Shown here: piece after piece, positions 40,234-55,237 of the stretch | Numbering within the stretch: position 1 is the first letter of the stretch | Layout: every line of letters begins with the position of its first letter | NCBI GenBank assembly: GCA_002104985.1 | Contig: MCGO01000083.1 | Location: 62,001-126,000 of the forward strand | Source of the DNA: Rhizoclosmatium globosum | Lineage: Eukaryota > Chytridiomycota > Chytridiomycetes > Chytridiales > Chytriomycetaceae | DNA: 64,000 nucleotides | Reading direction: 5' to 3' | Program-made: the position numbers and the translations under genes | The notes under the pieces: model-generated | Database searches by the model: none | Told to the model about the DNA's origin: nothing | What the model saw: the letters and a program-made list of their open reading frames with translations, nothing else

Positions 40234-40368
40234 TTCTTCTCTTTTTGTTTCACCGGTTATAAATAACACAGGAACCAGAAAATCGGAATTTGGAAAGTGG
40301 ACCCACGAAATTCCACACTGCAATCACACTACTTACGGGAACCCCACCTTCCAAATCACACTCCCACA

Positions 40369-41238
40369 ATGACACACCACCTTCTCACCAGTGCAACCAT
40401 GGCACCTGTTCCAGTGGCAAGCTCGACAGCGCTTCTCGTTCTCAACAACCAACTTGGATTTCGTGACAATTCCGTGTTTGGTCCTGACAGTTCGACGCCA
40501 AACTACGGCGCCAACATCGCGGCGCTTCTTTCGGCCTTCCGCGAAACCAGTTCAAAGTTGAGCGAAGGATCGCGGCCACTTGTGATCCACGTTCAGTACC
40601 GACCCGTGTGGACCGACCACCCGCTCCACGAATCAAAGCTCGGGCCCTTTGGACAAAACGCCGAAGAAGTCAGGGCAATCGACTTTCTCGAATTCGCTGC
40701 GCCGAGAAAGTGGACGCCCGAGGGATTCGAGCTGGTTTACTCGATCGATGAAGTGCGCCGCCCGAAACACAAAGATGCTCCTGCGCTTCCTGACGAGATT
40801 ATCATGTCGACTCATGGCCACAATCCCTTTATTAACTCTCCATTGGAATCGATTCTGAACAAGCGCGGGATCAAGACTCTTTTGGTCTGTGGAATGCAGA
40901 CAGATGTCTCGGTTAGTTCGGTGGTGAGAACTGCTCAGAACTTGGCTTTGACGGGTAAGTTTGGTGGGCGCGGGAATATGGCTGATGCTAGTTTGGGGGA
41001 ACGCTGGACAGATGGTGCCAGCGTGTTTGTTGAGGCAAAGGAAGATGCACCCGAGGGAGAACGTGGTGAAGATGGATTGGCGGTGGAAATGGCGCGTATC
41101 ATTTTGATTCAGGATGCGACGAGATCTTTTGGAAAAGGTGGGTTGGATGCAGAGACTGTTCAACGTGTTCATGTGGAGAGTTTGAAGGAATTTGCTGAAG
41201 TGTGGAACACAAGCGATGTTCTCGCCGCATTTCAATAA
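40369..41238 (+). CDS. Isochorismatase-like protein lacking the catalytic triad
   Basis: A single exon of 289 aa with the cysteine-hydrolase (isochorismatase) fold. Landmarks are TALLVLNNQLGF at the N-terminus, LVIHVQYRPVW, THGHNPFINSPLESIL and LLVCGMQTDVSVSSVV. Active members use Asp (in V-I-D-x-Q), Lys, and Cys (in T-D-x-C-V). Here these positions read Asn, probably Thr, and Ser. So it is either a pseudoenzyme or a protein with another mechanism. A Gly/Glu/Asp-rich insertion sits before the last strand. The start at 40369 gives a short leader; a second Met is at residue 11. The frame is clean, unlike its left neighbours. Confidence 0.8.
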   Translation: MTHHLLTSATMAPVPVASSTALLVLNNQLGFRDNSVFGPDSSTPNYGANIAALLSAFRETSSKLSEGSRPLVIHVQYRPVWTDHPLHESKLGPFGQNAEEVRAIDFLEFAAPRKWTPEGFELVYSIDEVRRPKHKDAPALPDEIIMSTHGHNPFINSPLESILNKRGIKTLLVCGMQTDVSVSSVVRTAQNLALTGKFGGRGNMADASLGERWTDGASVFVEAKEDAPEGERGEDGLAVEMARIILIQDATRSFGKGGLDAETVQRVHVESLKEFAEVWNTSDVLAAFQ

Positions 41239-46444: not shown

Positions 46445-46840
46445 TTTATTGTTACCATGACCAACATCAAACACTAACCCCCCTTTAATGTAAACTGTTG
46501 AGCCCCTTTCATTATATACAAAAAATAGAGGTAAGCGTCATAAGATATTCGAAATAGAGGCACCAACTTAAATGAAAACACGTAATTCTGACCTTTGGAC
46601 TAAGCCTCTCAATCTCATCTTTAGCCTTTTATGCTATGGTTTATTACTCAAGCTTCTCTTTATTTAATTTCATACAAACCCTTATTCGAAATCCTTCCGC
46701 TGAAAAATTGGTAAATCCATTCGAAATATCGTATATAAGCCAAGCGCAGATTTCGAAATCTGATTTTCAATTCACTCCTATAAAGCGACAACAAACCGCC
46801 TGTGATGCAGTTCAAAAAACAATCTCAACAAAACTCCCAG
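46445..46840 (+). promoter_or_regulatory. Upstream region of small secreted protein 1
   Basis: Three TTCGAAAT motifs (46685-46692, 46720-46727, 46752-46759) precede a TATAAAG box at 46779-46785, which is 56 bp before the ATG. The same arrangement recurs before the duplicate gene. The left part is the start region of the divergent HELMEAVTD gene. Confidence 0.6.
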
Positions 46841-47071
46841 ATGAACTTCCAAACTTTGATCGCTGTTCTCGCTACTAGCGTCGCTTTTGCCAACGCGCTC
46901 CCAGGTGGTGGCTTTGGAGGTGGTTTCCCTGGCGGATGTCACCCACCATGCCCATCCAACCTTCTCTGTCTCAACAACCAGTGTACCGCCATTTGCGTCC
47001 CGGACTGTGCTCCAAACCAAGTCTGCTCTACCAAGACCAACACATGCGTACCAAAAGGACTTGGTCGCTGA
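46841..47071 (+). CDS. Small secreted Cys-rich protein 1
   Basis: 76 aa. The start at 46841 is chosen over 46805 because it matches the duplicate gene exactly and begins directly with a signal peptide (to about residue 19). The mature part opens with a Gly-rich stretch (GGGFGGGFPGGC) followed by eight Cys in the order CHPPCPSNLLC, C, C-x3-C, C and C. This is a compact disulfide-bonded protein, reminiscent of small secreted fungal or egg-shell-like peptides. Function unknown. Confidence 0.72.
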   Translation: MNFQTLIAVLATSVAFANALPGGGFGGGFPGGCHPPCPSNLLCLNNQCTAICVPDCAPNQVCSTKTNTCVPKGLGR

Positions 47072-47507
47072 TTTTGAATTTATGTTTAATATATCCATTT
47101 GTATGAAGTGAATAAAACATGTTTGTGCCACATACTAGTTTAGAGAGAACATGAACCAATCGATCCCTGAACTTTGGTAAAGAAGCAAAAACAAAGATGG
47201 AACTGTGCCTTGATTCCTTCACCAGCTAGAAACTTAACCAAAGAGCAAGGATTCAGCCCCTCACAAAAAGAAACTACAAGATACAGGCCAAATGAAATTG
47301 CTGGTATTCTCAATGGATTATCGATTTTTGAGCAAACCCTCATTCGAAATCTTTCGCTGAAAAATTTTGGAATAAGGATCCATTCGAAATATATGCAAAT
47401 CAGTGCCAAGCTTGGATTTCGAAATCTGATTTTCAATCCAGGGCTATAAAGGGAACGATGATCGTTTACGAAGTTCCTCACAAAAAACAATATCACAAAA
47501 CTCCAAG
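47072..47507 (+). promoter_or_regulatory. Upstream region of small secreted protein 2
   Basis: The right half duplicates the promoter of protein 1: TTCGAAAT at 47343-47350, 47383-47390 and 47418-47425, and TATAAAG at 47447-47453, 55 bp before the ATG. No gene is seen in the left half. Confidence 0.6.
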
Positions 47508-47729
47508 ATGAACTTCCAAACCTTGATCGCTGTTCTCGCTACTAGCGTCGCTTTTGTCAACGCGCTCCCAGGCGGTGGCTTTGGAGGGGGTTTCCCTGGT
47601 GGATGTCACCCACCATGCCCATCCAACCTTCTCTGTGGCCCAAACAACCAGTGTGTCGCCATTTGCTTCCCGGACTGTGCTCCAAACCAAATTTGCTCTA
47701 CCAAGACCAACACCTGCGTTCCAAAGTAA
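47508..47729 (+). CDS. Small secreted Cys-rich protein 2
   Basis: 73 aa and nearly identical to protein 1 (signal peptide, Gly-rich start, same eight Cys). It differs by a Gly-Pro insertion after the third Cys and by loss of the last four residues (GLGR is missing). The duplication includes the promoter, so the two are probably co-expressed. Function unknown. Confidence 0.72.
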   Translation: MNFQTLIAVLATSVAFVNALPGGGFGGGFPGGCHPPCPSNLLCGPNNQCVAICFPDCAPNQICSTKTNTCVPK

Positions 47730-47964
47730 TGCAGTCCTTGATTTTGTTTCTGTAAAAATATATCAATGCCATATCCTCTTCCATGAAGTTAAATAAACTT
47801 TAGTGCAGCATCAAACAAATAATATATCGTGCTTTACTGCTTTAGAGAAATAATAACAGGAGAAACAATAAACCGAACAAGATGAAAACAGGGACTGGAA
47901 TACTGAACCAACGAACATGCATACACTCCCAATAAAACCAATCGTAATATAAACTCGAAAGCAC

Positions 47965-49321
47965 TCAAAAGTCGTAATCACGCGTTCGACCTGAAATAAT
48001 GAGTAAATAATGGGGTTGTTATGATGATCAAAACTTACTGAACGAAGGGCTCTTTGCTCGTGGAGTCAAACCATATAACCCGTCACCCACAGAAAGTGAT
48101 TTTCGAGGTTTAGGGCTGGAAGATCCTGTGTCGACGATAATGTTATTAGTATCAGATGAAATTAAGCTCGAACCAAGAAAGTATTTGATCTCACGTGAGT
48201 AATTCAGTTCCCATGGCATATCCGAATCAATTCCTTTACTGCGATGCTTTGATAGAGAGCGCGAATCTGCTTACTTGATTGTTAGGCTCACTTCACCACA
48301 TAAATAAACACAAAATGTTACCATCGTCATCATCCCTTCGACTTTTCGAGTGACGTCGTTCCTTCTTTTCCACAAGAGACTCTTCACTGCTTTCCAGATA
48401 CTTTTTGCTTCCTCGACGCTTCGGTTTAGCATCAGAAGCGTCTGAGTCATAATTCTTTTTCTTCTCGTCCTTGTCCCTCCGTGATGACCCAGACCTCGAA
48501 TGGCTCTTCTTTTCTTTACGATCATCGCCACTTTCTTCATCACTGCCTCGTCGACTCTTGCTCTTTTTCTTGTCCTTTCGTTCATCGTCACTGCCCTTGT
48601 CGCTTCCCTTCTTTTTGCTGGAACTGCGTTTATGTTCCTTTTCGTCATCGCTTCCGCGTTTTTTGCTGGAGCTTCGTTTATGTTCTTTTTCATCGTCGCT
48701 GCCCTTCTTTTTGCTGGAGCTCCTTTTGTGGTCCTTTTCGTCGTCGCTTCCTTTTGATTTACTTCCGTGTCGACTGTGTTTGTCGTGGTGTTTTTTGACG
48801 ACGATTGTTATGCTTTCGTCACTTTCACTAGCCTCGTCTTCACTTCCGCTTCCTTTCTTTGATTTCTTCTTGTCCTTTCCGTGCTTATGATCCTTCTCCT
48901 TCTCCTTGTCTTTTCCATGCTTATCCTTCTTCTTGTCCTTTTTCTTATCTTTCTTTTTGTCGTCGTCAGAATCGCCGCCGCCAGAGTCCGTATTCCCATT
49001 ATACGCAACGACAAGACTTTCACCATCCCTCAATACACCAACACTTGAATAGCTTGGTATCGCTGCGAAATCAGCTGTGTAAAACACACATCGGTCGCTG
49101 TCTACACCGTCATCGTCTGCAAGTTGATCGCGCTTTGCGAAGAGAACAAGGTCTAATAATGTGTATTTGGAGTTTGTCGGGATTTCAGCAATCACGCGTC
49201 TGGATGGTGATTCGGAGGATGATTTCGTGGACGGGAAGCCGACAAAGTTGAGTGTGACACGAGCGATTTTGGTGAGAGTTTGTTCCTTGTGGTCCTTCTC
49301 CTTGTCCTTGTCTTTGCCCAT
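47965..49321 (-). CDS. Highly charged Lys/Ser/Asp-rich protein
   Basis: Exons 48322-49321, 48039-48266 and 47965-47990 join to 417 aa. The first ~110 residues look folded (RVTLNFVGFPS to RDGESLVVAYNGN, possibly ubiquitin- or DIX-like). About 210 residues of repetitive Lys/Ser/Asp/Glu follow: KKKDKKKDKKKDK runs, then a 17-residue unit KGSDDEKEHKRSSSKK repeated about four times. The last 80 residues are less biased and end RTRDYDF. Such tails are typical of nuclear, RNA-associated proteins; this is inference. The repeat makes large open frames on the other strand that are not genes. Confidence 0.65.
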
Positions 49322-49638
49322 GTTTCGATGAAGTGACTGATAAAGAAGATTGTACTTTCGATTAAACGTTCTAAGTTTGTTGTTGCTGATTTAGTTGTTT
49401 GGTGGGCTTATGTCGGCTGGTATCGAGTTGACTCAATAGTCCGAATATAAACAGTTGATCTGGAAGAGTGGAGTGAGAGAGGCAAATGTCTTGATTGTTC
49501 TCGTGGTTCAAAGACGTTTTTCAGTGGCTCGCCCACATTGTCTCGGATTCCAATTGTTCTAGAAGGACATCATCAACTATTCGGGATTCTGACCAATCAT
49601 AACATTGATGGCAAATATATGAAGTATGCTTAATCTAT
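49322..49638. other. Intergenic region
   Basis: 317 bp between the start of the charged protein gene and the end of the first TIR-Sel1 gene. No gene recognised; it should hold the promoter of the former. Confidence 0.3.
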
Positions 49639-51429
49639 TTAAAAGAATTCAAGAATTTCAAGAGCTGTGGTTGCTTCTTCCACACCACCAGCCGCAGCCT
49701 TTGTAAATAATTCTTTCGCCATATCTTTGTTTTGCTCCACACCTAGACCATCTCTATAAAAGTTGGCTAATGCATATTGAGAATCGGCGGATCCCTGTTT
49801 GGCAGCTTTCTCGTGCCAGGCAAAAGCGCGTACATAGTCTTTCTTGACTCCAAGTCCATTTTCGTAAATAGTACCAAGCCGTCGTTGCGCATACATGTAT
49901 CTGTGATATATACATTTAGCTTCTTTCTTAAGACTTTGTATCCCTCACCCTGATTTGCAGACTTTGTGTACCAAACAAGAGCTTCATTGAATGAAGGATC
50001 ACATCCAAGTCCCTTCTCCAACATTTCTGCAAGATTGCACTGTGCGAATTGGTTATCGGCGTCTGCTGCCAGACCAAACCAGTGTAAAGCAGTCGCGTAG
50101 TTTTGATCGCAGCCAAGTCCGTCCTTGTACATGATAGCGAGTGAGTTTTGTGCATTCGCATATCCTTGGTTTGCAGATCGCGTGAACATATCGAGAGCGG
50201 CTTTGTAGTTTTGGGCCACACCCAGTCCTTGTTTGTATACTCTGCCTGTGTTGAATTCTCCGATTTTGTATTCTTGCACTGCTGATTTTTCGTAGTAATA
50301 AGCAGCTTTGGACCAGTCCTTCAAGATCTGTCAGGTATACCAGCTTTAGATCGATAATACCAATCTAACGTTCCTAATTTTGTTTCATCACTCACCTCGT
50401 ACATTTCTCCTAAATGGTTCATTCCACTAGAGTTTCCAAACTTGGCGGCCTTACTGTAATACTCAATCGCATTTGCTGTAGATTGAGGGACACCCAACCC
50501 AAAGCGACACATATCGCCCAAGTTATCAAACGCCTCTCCAGACTCTTTACTTGCAGCTTTCTGGGAAAAACTCCCACGCTTTCGCATAGTCTTGGTACGT
50601 TCCATATCCAAATCGATGCATCAATCCAAGATTCGTAAGTCCCATTGGATTCCCTTGATTCGCAGACCGAGTAAACCATTCAATCGCTTTCCTGAATCTT
50701 GTGGACATCCCAGCCCAAATCGATACGCAAGACCCAAGTTGTTTTGACCGTATGGGTTTCCATTCTCTGCACTCTTGACAAAGAATCGGAATGCAGTCAG
50801 TTGATCAGGTTTGCGTCCAACGTGTCCGTTCTTCCACATGATTCCCATTCGGTTTTGGCATTCTGCGTTTCCTTGTGCAGCTCCTTCGTCAATGTTTTCA
50901 GCGTCGGGTGCGTTGAGGATTTCGGAAAGAAGGTCGAAAAGGGAATCTGATTTGGTTGAGTCGTCACTGAAATCAATGCTGGTGAGTTGGTCTGCTCCAG
51001 TTTTGATGAGAGAACGGGGGAAGGGGCCGTGATCAAGGCGAAGAGGGATAATGTGCTTGTACTCTGACAGGGAGAAGTTGAGTTCTTTTGGCAGTTTACT
51101 GAAGTCTTTCTTGGTTGTTAATGGTGACAGGTTTAATTGGGTTCAAGCAATATGTACCTCATAGGTGGATGACAGGTTGATGAGGATCACCTTGCTGTCC
51201 TGGATACCTTCAACCATTCGATCGACAGTATTTCCGGTCATCTTTTCATCATCTCGCCAGACAAGAAGACCTTGGGATGTGAGAAAGTCGTGGATCTCAA
51301 CAACAAGGTCCTTCTGCGCCCATCTGGATTCCTTGATTATTAGCATCGATATTGACATAAATGAAGTACTTGCGAATAGGAAAGCATGGCATGGTACTTG
51401 AAACCAGGTGGAAGTGGTCGGACTTGCAT
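49639..51429 (-). CDS. TIR-domain protein with Sel1 repeats, downstream copy
   Basis: Exon 1 (51374-51429) starts MQVRPLPPGFKYHAMLSYS. A 50-nt intron with a GC donor (51324-51373) leads to WAQKDLVVEIHDFL and LLVWRDDEKM, the core of a TIR domain. After the intron ending near 51113, PKELNFSLSEYK offers the Glu expected at the NADase site. From about residue 160 come ~10 Sel1-like repeats of ~36 residues (YRFGLGCPQD, MYKDGLGCDQNY, IYENGLGVKKDY) up to 49639. Single-base shifts near 50691-50697, 50561-50570 and 49945-49951 interrupt the frame. The repeats continue smoothly across each, so these are probably errors. Confidence 0.75.
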
Positions 51430-51486
51430 TTGCTGATTCGAAAGATGTTTCAAACAAGTTGAAATAACAATAAGTTGATTCTATTA

Positions 51487-53080
51487 TCAAAACAAATCAA
51501 AAATCTCTAGCGCCATCTGCGCATCCTCATCTCCTCCTTCAGCTGCAAGTGTAAATAGCCGACGAGCTCGTTCCCTATCTTGTTTTTACCACCAAGACCA
51601 TCACGGTATAGAGTTCCCTCAGCATACTGTGCAGATGGGTTACCCTGTTGGGCACTCTTGGTGTAAAACTCCAATGCTTGTTTGAAATCCTGTAGTTGGT
51701 TGTGTTATTTGAGTTGGGAAATATCACCAAAACAAATTACCTTTGTAGTTCCCAAACCATTCTCGTACATGGTACCAAGGTTATACTGTGCGTACATATT
51801 TCCTTCGTTAGCCGCCCTTTGAAACCACTTGATTGCTCGAGAAAAGTCCTCCAACGTTTTGTAAATCTCGCCTAATGAGTTCATTGCATCCACGTATCCC
51901 GTGTTTGCAGCTTTACCAAACCATTCACATGCTCGTTGCAAATCCCTTTCAACTCCCCAGCCATATTTGTAGCACTGTCCCAAGTTGTTTTGGGCTACAG
52001 CATTCCCTTGTCGGGCACTTCGGAGATACCACTCGACTGCCTTTTCTTCACTCTGCTCAGCTCCCTGTCCCTCTTGATACATGTATCCCAACGCACACTG
52101 TGCATCCGCATTTCCCTGCTTAGCTGCCATTTCTCTCCAGTAGGCGCAACGTCTGAGATCGACCGGGATTCCTCCCAATCCACTTTCATAAATATAAGCA
52201 AGGTTGACTTGTGAATCTGCGTGTCCTTTGTTCGCTGCTTTTGTGAACCAGTTGATTGCAAGGCTCATGTCTTGCTTTGTACCTCTCCCAAGTTTATACA
52301 TTACAGCAAGCTTGAATTAAGTGGGTGAGATAAGTGGAGCAAGGTTAAAGGTGATTAGTCTTACATTGTATTCTGCCTTAAGGTTGCCCAACGATGCTGC
52401 CCTAGAAAACCATTCAAACGCTTTCTTAAACTCCCGCTCAAAGTAAAAGTTTGAAGCCACGATTTCCATCGCATTGGCATCGCCTGCCAAGGCATTCTGA
52501 AAGACGTCTTGAGCAGTAGCAGGATCCACATCAGCCTGATCCGCCGAAACACCAATTGTCTTAATAATCTCCTTAAACAGGGCTCCCATTGTCGCTTCCT
52601 TCTTGCTCAAATCCGTAAAGTCAAAGTACAGCGAGTCATCAGATCCAACTTTGAACTTTGTCTTTGGGTAAGGTCCGTTGTCCAACCGGATCTGAATCAG
52701 AGGCTTCTTTTCGCTTTCGGCAAAGTTGAGTTCCTTTTGGGCGCTTTCGGATTGCTGTCAGAAGATGGATGTTGTTTAAATTGACTGAAACCGAAAGTGG
52801 AGATGGCGGGAGATACCTCATAGTCCCTTGACATGCACACAAGCATTAGTTTGGAGTCCTGGATTCCTTCGACGATGCTTCCGTCGACACTGCCGGTTAC
52901 CTGGCGATCATCCCGCCACAGCTTGAGGCCGTTTGCGGTGAGGAAGTTGTGGATCTCAACCACGATCGGCTTTTGGACCCAGCTGTAATGGATGTTAACC
53001 AATTGTTAGGTACGGATGTGTGCTTACGAGTAGGACATGATGGCATGGTACTTGAAACCAGCAGGCAGGGAAATCGACAT
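51487..53080 (-). CDS. TIR-domain protein with Sel1 repeats, upstream copy
   Basis: Exon 1 starts at 53080 (MSISLPAGFKYHAIMSYS); intron 52983-53027 is GT-AG. The TIR part continues WVQKPIVVEIHNFL, LKLWRDDRQV, IVEGIQDSKLMLVCMSRDY and AQKELNFAESEKKPLIQIRL, with Glu of KEL as candidate catalytic residue. A linker (~residues 110-190) precedes about eight Sel1-like repeats (MYKLGRGTKQDM, IYESGLGG, MYQEGQGAEQ, MYENGLGTTK) ending at 51487. One base seems missing near 51578-51588, just before the last repeat. The two copies are in tandem, only 58 bp apart, and this one shares a 268-bp divergent promoter with the PstS-receptor gene. Function unknown; signalling or defence by NAD cleavage is a hypothesis. 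Confidence 0.78.
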
Positions 53081-53348
53081 TTGGTTTGAAGATTAAAAAG
53101 TAGATGTAGTACTGAGACAATACTTGAGTGCAAAAGAAAGGCCATGAACAGAAGAGTACTTAAATTCAACTGTTCTGTGCGTTAATAAGGAAGAGATTGT
53201 CGGTTATCAATGTACCATGTTTCACTTCTACAATTCCAGAGACGCTTAATATTTGAATTTTCGATTACTTTCAAGTCCTAACAATGATTGCGTCGCTTAG
53301 AAATTTGTTGGCTAAGATTTACAGATTATTTGTTTGAAATCGCCTTGC
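53081..53348. promoter_or_regulatory. Divergent promoter region: TIR-Sel1 and PstS-receptor genes
   Basis: 268 bp separate two start codons facing away from each other. The sequence is AT-rich with no coding frame. It must contain both promoters. No recognised factor site. Confidence 0.4.
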
Positions 53349-55237
53349 ATGATTGTCAACTGTTTGGCCATTCTGGTCGTTACTTTGCTGGTGTATTACG
53401 TTGAAGGTACTGTCACTGTGATTAAAGGAGGTGGAACGACGTTCCCGCAGCAACCATATTTCAGTGCTGTTGCTGACTTCAACCAACTTTATCGTAAGCC
53501 CCATCTCCCGCCTTCAACTTTACATTAATGTTTGGTCACTAGAAGGCGTACAAGCAACATACAACGCGACAAACTCGCAAACAGGTCAACAATCCGTGGC
53601 ATCCGGGCTTTTAAACTGGGGTGGAAGCGACACTGATGTGCAAACAAGCATAGCAGGCTCCGACAAACTAGTCGTGTTACCAGCTATTGCGGGAGGCCTA
53701 CTTATTGCGTATAATCTCCCAGGATATTCTGACACGTTAAAGTTGAGCAGAAAAGCCTTTCCGCGAATCTTTGATGGAAAGATTCAGAAATGGAATGATC
53801 CCATGATTGTCAAAGACAATCCTTTCCTCGCGAATAACAGTGCTTCTATCCGTGTCGTGCGACAAGTAGCTTCCAAAGGGTCTTCTGTCAACTTGTCAAA
53901 GTTTTTGATTCAGTTGGACGCTGAGAATGGAATATCGCCGTCGCCTCATTCGAATCCACAAACTTTACAGTCGATTCCATCTTCGCTGCTTGCGAAAAAT
54001 CCTGCTGCTATAAATGTCATGGTGGGTGCGATCCCAAATACTATTGGTTACTTGAACCAATATGAGGCCCAAGATGCTATACTACCGTCCGACTCTACTG
54101 TTAAAGCCGCGTTGATACAACACAAAGACGGATCGTTTATTCGTTGGTCTGGCGATACTGTCAAAATTGCTGTGACTGGAATTCCAGATGCAGTCGTCAA
54201 AAATGCATCACTCCAAACCAACTTAATCGCATATAATTTGCCTGTAAAAGGAGCATACCCACTGTCCTTGATATCGAATTTTGTTCTAAATCCAACAAAT
54301 ATCTCGAGTAATCCCTTGGAAATTGTTGGCACATTGAAGCTTCTTTGGATGTTTCTTCAAAGCCCGCAGGTACGAATTTCCTTTTCCGTTCGTAGCCTAC
54401 AACTTACCCTACACTGTGTAGTATGCCAATCAGTATACTTATACTTCCCTCACAAATACAACCATGGGGTACAAGACGTTAAACTTCTTAAAAACTATCA
54501 AATATTCGGATGGAACACTGATATACGGCCAATCAATTTGTGACGTTGATGTGGACGGAAGCTATAAAAATCCATGTATCCATGGTCACTGCATTGACCC
54601 ACTTCCATTCCAAGCTCCAGATCAAGTTTGCGTCTGCAATAATGGATACCAAAATGTTATGAATAACGATTGCAGCGAACCCACGCCGTTATTCATGCCT
54701 GGATTCGTGAGTAAATTGCAAATTGCTCTGTTCGTTATTGCGACTCTTGTTATCATCGTCTTTGCCTATTTTATTGTCGTGAAAAGGAACGAGCCAGATG
54801 TGAAGGCCATCTCGCCATTCTGTTGCTCATACATTCTAGTTGGATGTTTTATTGGAACTGTGGCCATTCTGACAAAAGGACTGTCTACTACGAATTCCGT
54901 CTGTCACGCGAACGCAGTTCTCCCAGCAGTCGCGTTTGGAATGATATTCAGTATGATTTTGGCAAAAGCTATTAGGATCTTTCTTATATTTGGTTACTCG
55001 AAAATTGCGCGATCTCGGTTCTTGAAGGATGATTTTTTGATTGCTTGTTGTACCGCTGTTGCAGTATTTGAAGGGGCGTTTACAGGAAAGGCGATGGATG
55101 GGGCTGGCGTTGAGCCACGTCTTATTACGTTTGATGGGTCCTCGGATACTTATGGGCCTGTGCCTCAGATAGTGTCGGTGGCGGAAGGGTCAAAAAGTCC
55201 ACATTCGAGTAAAAATCAGGTTTCCTTTATCAAATAG
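53349..55237 (+). CDS. PstS-like domain + EGF-like + class-C-like membrane protein
   Basis: Exons 53349-53493, 53543-54369 and 54422-55237 join in frame to 595 aa. A signal peptide (~1-20) is followed by a phosphate-binding-type solute domain: GGGTTFPQQPYFSAVADF, LNWGGSDTDVQTS, AGGLLIAYNLPGYSDTLKLS and IFDGKIQKWNDPMIV, all classic PstS landmarks. After ~residue 360 comes an EGF-like module (CIHGHCIDP, CVCNNGYQ). Helices then start at about residue 422 (ALFVIATLVIIVFAYFIVV), 456 and 488 (VLPAVAFGMIFSMILAKAIR), with a weaker fourth at 520. The first helices recall class C GPCRs (GABA-B/Grl type), but helices 5-7 are missing and a short polar tail ends at 55237. Likely surface sensor. Confidence 0.72.

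Follow-up and report, generated by a model that had tools for sequence, protein, structure and literature searches.

Two neighbouring tandem paralogues on the minus strand, termed here gene A and gene B, were found in the window (the whole 64,000-nucleotide stretch of Rhizoclosmatium globosum DNA analysed, C403:62001-126000), each encoding a TIR domain followed by Sel1 repeats. Both domains, their fusion in one frame, the tandem pairing, a catalytic-type glutamate, the wider family and a common intron were observed directly. The best explanation, to which we assign a probability of roughly 0.5, is that the genes encode apparently soluble TIR-Sel1 paralogues of a large chytrid TIR family, in which binding by the Sel1 repeats would lead to TIR clustering, glutamate-dependent NAD+ cleavage and arrest or death. 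TIR-NLRs of Chytridiomycota and bacterial TIR-Sel1 proteins are already known and each domain is ordinary; the host and the combination are what is unusual. How large the fungus's TIR repertoire is, and how it is built, matters more than the pair itself.

Gene models and domain content of the pair

Gene A (window positions 51487..53080, minus strand) was modelled with five exons (53080-53028, 52982-52817, 52754-52365, 52310-51741 and 51689-51487) and four short introns, with one frame break in the last exon. Gene B (49639..51429, minus strand) was likewise modelled with five exons (51429-51374, 51323-51158, 51109 (or 51105)-50396, 50327-49949 and 49899-49639) and four short introns, the first of which has a GC-AG border. 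This gene has two frame breaks, both in exon 3, and the junction of exons 4 and 5 does not close in frame as placed. The sequence-only reading had correctly placed both genes on the minus strand, with the start of gene A at 53080 and the end of gene B at 49639.

The exons were joined and compared with Pfam by hmmscan. The 428 residues of gene A up to its frame break matched TIR_2 (PF13676) at residues 15-128 (57.3 bits, E 2.8e-15; approximately 52587..53038, split across exons) and Sel1 (PF08238) in seven stretches (201.3 bits), the Sel1 region spanning 51487..52590 when a partial match in the last exon is included. The first 212 residues of gene B matched TIR_2 at residues 15-129 (53.5 bits, E 4.4e-14; approximately 50987..51387, also split across exons) and contained one Sel1 stretch (32.5 bits). 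The remainder of gene B, scanned in pieces, gave 3 + 2 + 1 further Sel1 stretches and one partial match, which places its repeats at 49639..50910 (1 + 1 + 3 + 2 stretches and the partial match). Both TIR_2 scores exceed the curated cut-off of 28 bits, and both genes belong with the Sel1-repeat proteins by virtue of several repeats each; the TIR_2 match of gene B was also recovered in a profile search of the genome, at C403:112960-113322. The TIR domain, the Sel1 repeats and the tandem arrangement proposed from the letters alone were thus borne out. Of the 8-10 repeats claimed for each gene, the multiplicity stood, and the count found was at least seven in each.

The fusion of the two domains can be read directly and is independent of the splicing guesses, since a single open frame in exon 3 of gene A (52754-52365) leads from the last part of the TIR domain into the first Sel1 repeat, and exon 3 of gene B runs from its KELNF motif into Sel1 ahead of its first frame break.

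No match to NACHT or NB-ARC was obtained with Pfam in gene A or in the first 212 residues of gene B, and the profile search of the genome gave no NPHP3_N match at C403:111639-115080, so the pair was not classed with the NLR or STAND receptors. The Thoeris profile ThsB_TIR (PF08937) scored 16.5 bits on gene A, below its cut-off of 21.2. No HET domain (PF06985) was found in either gene at E ≤ 0.1, and none of the 17 HET matches of the genome falls on the pair. Matches to PADLOC profiles were weak and scattered (PtuA at 1e-7 inside the repeats; PDC-S66, SAVED_TIR and bSEFIR at 2.4e-5 to 0.004) and were rejected, as were NCBIfam matches of gene A, which lie within the repeats and far under their cut-offs.

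The TIR repertoire of the genome and the descent of the pair

The assembly consists of 420 contigs and totals 56.9 Mb. Strong chitin synthase matches (best 587 bits; the profile also matched 4 of 14 bacterial controls, so that strong matches alone were counted) and flagellar radial-spoke genes (141 bits, none of the 14 controls matched) identify the organism as a flagellated fungus of the chytrid type. Profile searches of the genome gave 92 matches to TIR_2 and 66 to NPHP3_N, a NACHT-type domain, both counts taking in haplotype copies and pieces of one gene, together with 5 matches to PF01582 and 17 to HET. For 36 of the 92 TIR_2 matches, an NPHP3_N match lies no more than 2.5 kb downstream on the same strand, and 27 of the 66 NPHP3_N matches are without such a TIR.

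The arrangement of these domains was read from match positions and from 20 open frames of sampled TIR loci compared with Pfam, the loci fetched being a part of the 92 matches. Two of these frames (L043 and L044) hold TIR and NACHT-type domains together. Frames in line behind TIR loci encode WD40 repeats (L044, L052, L056), ankyrin repeats (L047) or leucine-rich repeats (L053), and a TPR frame lies behind the TIR locus of L048, on a contig that has no NPHP3_N match. At L046:1237-4252 (C135), TIR and NACHT are followed in line by Sel1 and SAM, with changes of frame between them, and a single gene there is only putative. Three open frames of L041 matched no Pfam family. A separate open frame, L050:763-1881 (C161), combines PH and TIR_2 domains.

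The combination of TIR with Sel1 was seen in two further places. A 197-residue frame on C46 (L019) matched TIR_2 at 44.1 bits and Sel1 at 28.4 bits, just below the Sel1 cut-off of 30.7, and on C361 a TIR match at 302015 is followed on the same strand by Sel1 matches at 302613 and 302966. Sel1 matches in the genome are lower bounds, as 150 of 614 candidates were scored. The closest TIR relatives elsewhere (two on C246, one on C374, and those on C381/C108/C268) have no nearby Sel1 among the matches listed, which makes TIR-Sel1 a minority arrangement; with a home-made profile, no Sel1 was found within 6 kb downstream of L039 (C108).

A phase-0 GT-AG intron of gene A (52755..52816, minus strand) lies just before the catalytic helix, between a Tyr-Glu and the residues that lead to the candidate catalytic glutamate. 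Of 22 scanned sequences, 21 have a GT-AG intron that agrees with it in codon boundary and phase; the 22 had been chosen because their TIR match seemed to break there, and the 21 positives represent 17 places, 14 of them TIR-NACHT. The slice taken from the window failed the intron pattern and its copy on contig C247 fitted it; the misfit is attributed to the lack of Asn-Cys in gene A and to local noise in gene B. Several further TIR pieces are uninterrupted at this position (the upper domain of L006, L010, L011, L014, L017 and L019). The shared intron links the pair with the TIR-NACHT genes of the fungus itself and, as far as gene structure can tell, the pair probably belongs to the same TIR family.

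A 2014 report found no NLRs in chytrids (PMC4986451), and another of that year listed TIR_2 among domains special to some fungi (PMC4102429, 2014). TIR domains were later said to occur in fungi (PMC7075850, 2020), were reported in NLRs of Chytridiomycota (PMC9815663, 2022), and fungal TIR-NLRs were described as a small group (PMC10197012, 2023). A 2026 atlas of TIR proteins, in the portion available, recovered hardly any fungal TIRs from EukProt, and those came solely from Rhizoclosmatium globosum; the InterPro clan yielded none, and the atlas did not include further fungal TIRs that had been reported before (PMC13142454). The initial remark that TIR domains are rare in fungi therefore agrees with most of this literature, as excerpted, and fails for the present genome, with its 92 TIR_2 matches and 36 of these beside a NACHT-type domain. 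Judged by titles and abstract openings, none of the publications listed for TIR with Sel1 (in one case 20 of 1,353) has a fungal TIR-Sel1 protein as its subject; Sel1 repeats are recorded in bacterial Avs5 (PMC12931631).

The pair resembles the TIR-NLRs reported from Chytridiomycota and other fungi (PMC9815663, PMC10197012) in being a fungal TIR, and the same genome has TIR beside NACHT-type domains with a shared intron, but the pair is without NACHT and its TIR domain runs straight into Sel1. The HET domain of Dikarya, which has been treated as a distant relative of TIR (PMC12881547, 2025) and is described as a TIR-like cell-death domain at the N-terminus of fungal NLRs (PMC12881547, PMC4986451), is comparable in kind, but the matches of genes A and B are to TIR_2 rather than HET, and the HET matches of this genome are separate. 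The TIR genes of at least one zoosporic fungus thus number in the dozens. Many lie next to NACHT-type domains, as in the TIR-NLRs of plants, some have the architecture of plant and animal immune receptors, and NACHT-free TIR-Sel1 genes are present in addition. Such a genome offers a setting for two questions: do genuine TIR enzymes have a part in the immunity or cell death of fungi, and does a TIR domain that lacks the usual tryptophan yield a different NAD+ product?

Catalytic residues and proposed function

An alignment and profile of ten TIR sequences was built from gene A, gene B, six paralogue pieces and two bacterial TIR-Sel1 proteins. The glutamate of KELNF is one of two invariant columns (10 of 10 rows), and in five profile alignments it stands opposite the glutamate of Cat1, Roq1, PdTIR and a TLR; in gene A the KEL codons lie at approximately 52728..52733. 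The catalytic-type glutamate suspected in both copies was thereby confirmed. At E ≤ 0.01 the profile matched 70 distinct PDB sequences, of which 60 were listed; Cat1 (1.2e-14) and Roq1 stood at the top, and PdTIR, AbTIR (1.5e-7) and SARM1 (2.3e-5) were among them. Gene A alone gave weak matches to the PDB, the best being PdTIR 3h16 at E 0.0086; unrelated proteins set in at E 0.94. The possibility that profile comparison would place the N-terminal domain outside the TIR family was not realised, given the TIR_2 scores and the match of the profile to known TIR structures.

A survey of the fetched loci (L001-L058) yielded 26 distinct eight-residue motifs around this glutamate. The glutamate and a cysteine were each present in 25 of the 26, and an asparagine stood four residues before the glutamate in 20. 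The only motif without the glutamate was that of the C247 copy of gene A, at its frame break. Gene A of the window has Ser-Ala where most members of the family have Asn-Cys, and exon matches of 98% identity over that place on C35 and C28 suggest that this difference is real. Ahead of the glutamate of gene B, the sequence is KLPKELNF in the window and NCQKELNF on C247, the latter fitting the family. The tryptophan of the WxxxE motif, four residues before the glutamate, occurs in none of the 26 motifs and is absent from window genes A and B. The two genes are like SARM1 and AbTIR in having a TIR domain with the catalytic glutamate and in the profile matches given above, but they differ by this tryptophan, which SARM1 has. 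It is also present in AbTIR, and it has been reported as required for the cyclic-ADPR product (PMC11374754, as far as its accessible text goes).

With the glutamate kept and the tryptophan absent, the TIR domains may be catalytic, and signalling by cyclic ADPR becomes less likely; on the residues alone, cleavage of NAD by the TIR domains of the pair is plausible. In the preferred explanation, the Sel1 solenoid would bind a partner, or a foreign or stress ligand, and clustering would gather the TIR domains, as in other TIR proteins. The assembled TIR domains would then cleave NAD+ through the conserved glutamate, and the outcome would be growth arrest or death of an infected cell or of one in contact with non-self. 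Plain consumption of NAD+ would be expected rather than cyclic-ADPR signals, because the WxxxE tryptophan is absent. Catalysis, sensing, clustering and the immune or cell-death outcome are what we infer from the domains and residues, and an NAD-based immune or cell-death role of the pair can fairly be inferred. Among microbial eukaryotes, TirBCD of Dictyostelium is a comparable TIR protein, for which the available portion of the source gives no known regulatory domain; it differs in being described as acquired recently from bacteria and shown to be a potent NADase, whereas the chytrid pair has Sel1 and its NAD cleavage is putative (PMC13142454).

The missing tryptophan, and in gene A the missing Asn-Cys before the glutamate, speak against a plain NADase signaller, and both are what might be seen if the TIR domain were a non-catalytic adaptor, through which A and B join other TIR proteins, such as the TIR-NACHT receptors, by TIR-TIR contacts while Sel1 recruits a partner, with no cleavage of NAD+. 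The tryptophan is reported to be less conserved in non-catalytic TIRs (PMC11374754, in part). A possible receptor is also at hand, as a TIR-NACHT gene (C403:126656-127750, plus strand, covered in part by L033) lies just beyond the end of the window, about 11.6 kb from gene A and head to head with it. The same order of pair and TIR-NACHT gene was found on C35 (about 15.7 kb) and C28 (about 10.9 kb), but this linkage is weak evidence, because these contigs are haplotype copies. Both window genes and 25 of the 26 motifs retain the glutamate, of which an adaptor would have no need, and we consider this alternative possible but doubtful. A more elaborate version of the enzymatic explanation, which we regard as distinctly unlikely, would cast the pair as two NACHT-free executors in a fungal TIR immune system, with gene B as the enzyme and gene A, its Asn-Cys lost, as a regulatory or decoy partner, both answering to the nearby TIR-NACHT receptor; asparagine in place of the WxxxE tryptophan would then give a product of its own, unlike the cyclic-ADPR signalling of plants and bacteria.

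Integrity and origin of the genes

The DNA search found four copies of the pair: the window's own, and those on C247 (100% as printed), C35 (98%) and C28 (97%). Contig C247 (L058) matches window positions 47000-54333 at 99.6%, and their differences over 47000-53480 amount to 15 gap positions and 2 substitutions, each substitution adjoining a gap. The assembly appears to carry uncollapsed haplotypes with many single-base gaps. The one frame break in A, the two in B and the unclosed junction could in principle mark decaying pseudogenes. However, C247 has an uninterrupted frame at each of the three breaks of the window, and its own breaks lie elsewhere (next to the catalytic glutamate of A, and within exons 2 and 3 of B), and the differences, being gaps or next to gaps, have the pattern of consensus errors. 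The frame breaks therefore look like indels of a noisy assembly rather than decay, and we consider pseudogenes very unlikely.

The likeness to bacterial proteins that had been noticed from the sequence held up, in that bacterial TIR-Sel1 proteins exist, so the architecture is not unique to this fungus. A search with full-length gene A found 447 proteins, of which 120 were listed; these matched mostly by Sel1, and 8 of the 120 listed relatives have both TIR and Sel1. A search with the TIR part of gene A (residues 1-175) gave 278 candidates, none at E ≤ 0.001. The bacterial proteins P0023, P0054, P0096 and P0112 share with the pair an N-terminal TIR with the glutamate and C-terminal Sel1 repeats, at a low identity to gene A (28-32% over 87-94% of A), but differ in having no introns and, as judged by eye, a hydrophobic stretch between the two parts. 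This stretch was seen in 4 of the 8 bacterial-type proteins and in neither A nor B. Some bacterial TIR-Sel1 proteins would thus be of a membrane type, while A and B look soluble. Residues 1-557 of P0023 match a gene of a Rikenellaceae genome bin (L059; best segment 74%), and the predicted model of this protein is weak in its TIR part (pLDDT about 43-73). That A and B are recent derivatives of such bacterial genes, or contamination, would agree with these shared architectures and with the Rikenellaceae match, but is very unlikely given the four introns per gene, one of them at the boundary and phase of the TIR-NACHT genes, the presence of the pair on four contigs, the absence of the hydrophobic linker, and the failure of the TIR part of A to find any of its candidates at the threshold.

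Other open frames were noted around the pair in the window. A gene on the plus strand at 53422-55237 encodes a class C seven-helix receptor domain preceded by a domain of the periplasmic-binding type. Two near-identical small tandem open frames, rich in glycine and cysteine and of secreted type, lie at 46784-47071 and 47430-47729 on the plus strand. A partial isochorismatase-fold hydrolase is encoded at 40267-41238 on the plus strand, with a profile match over about 56 residues only.
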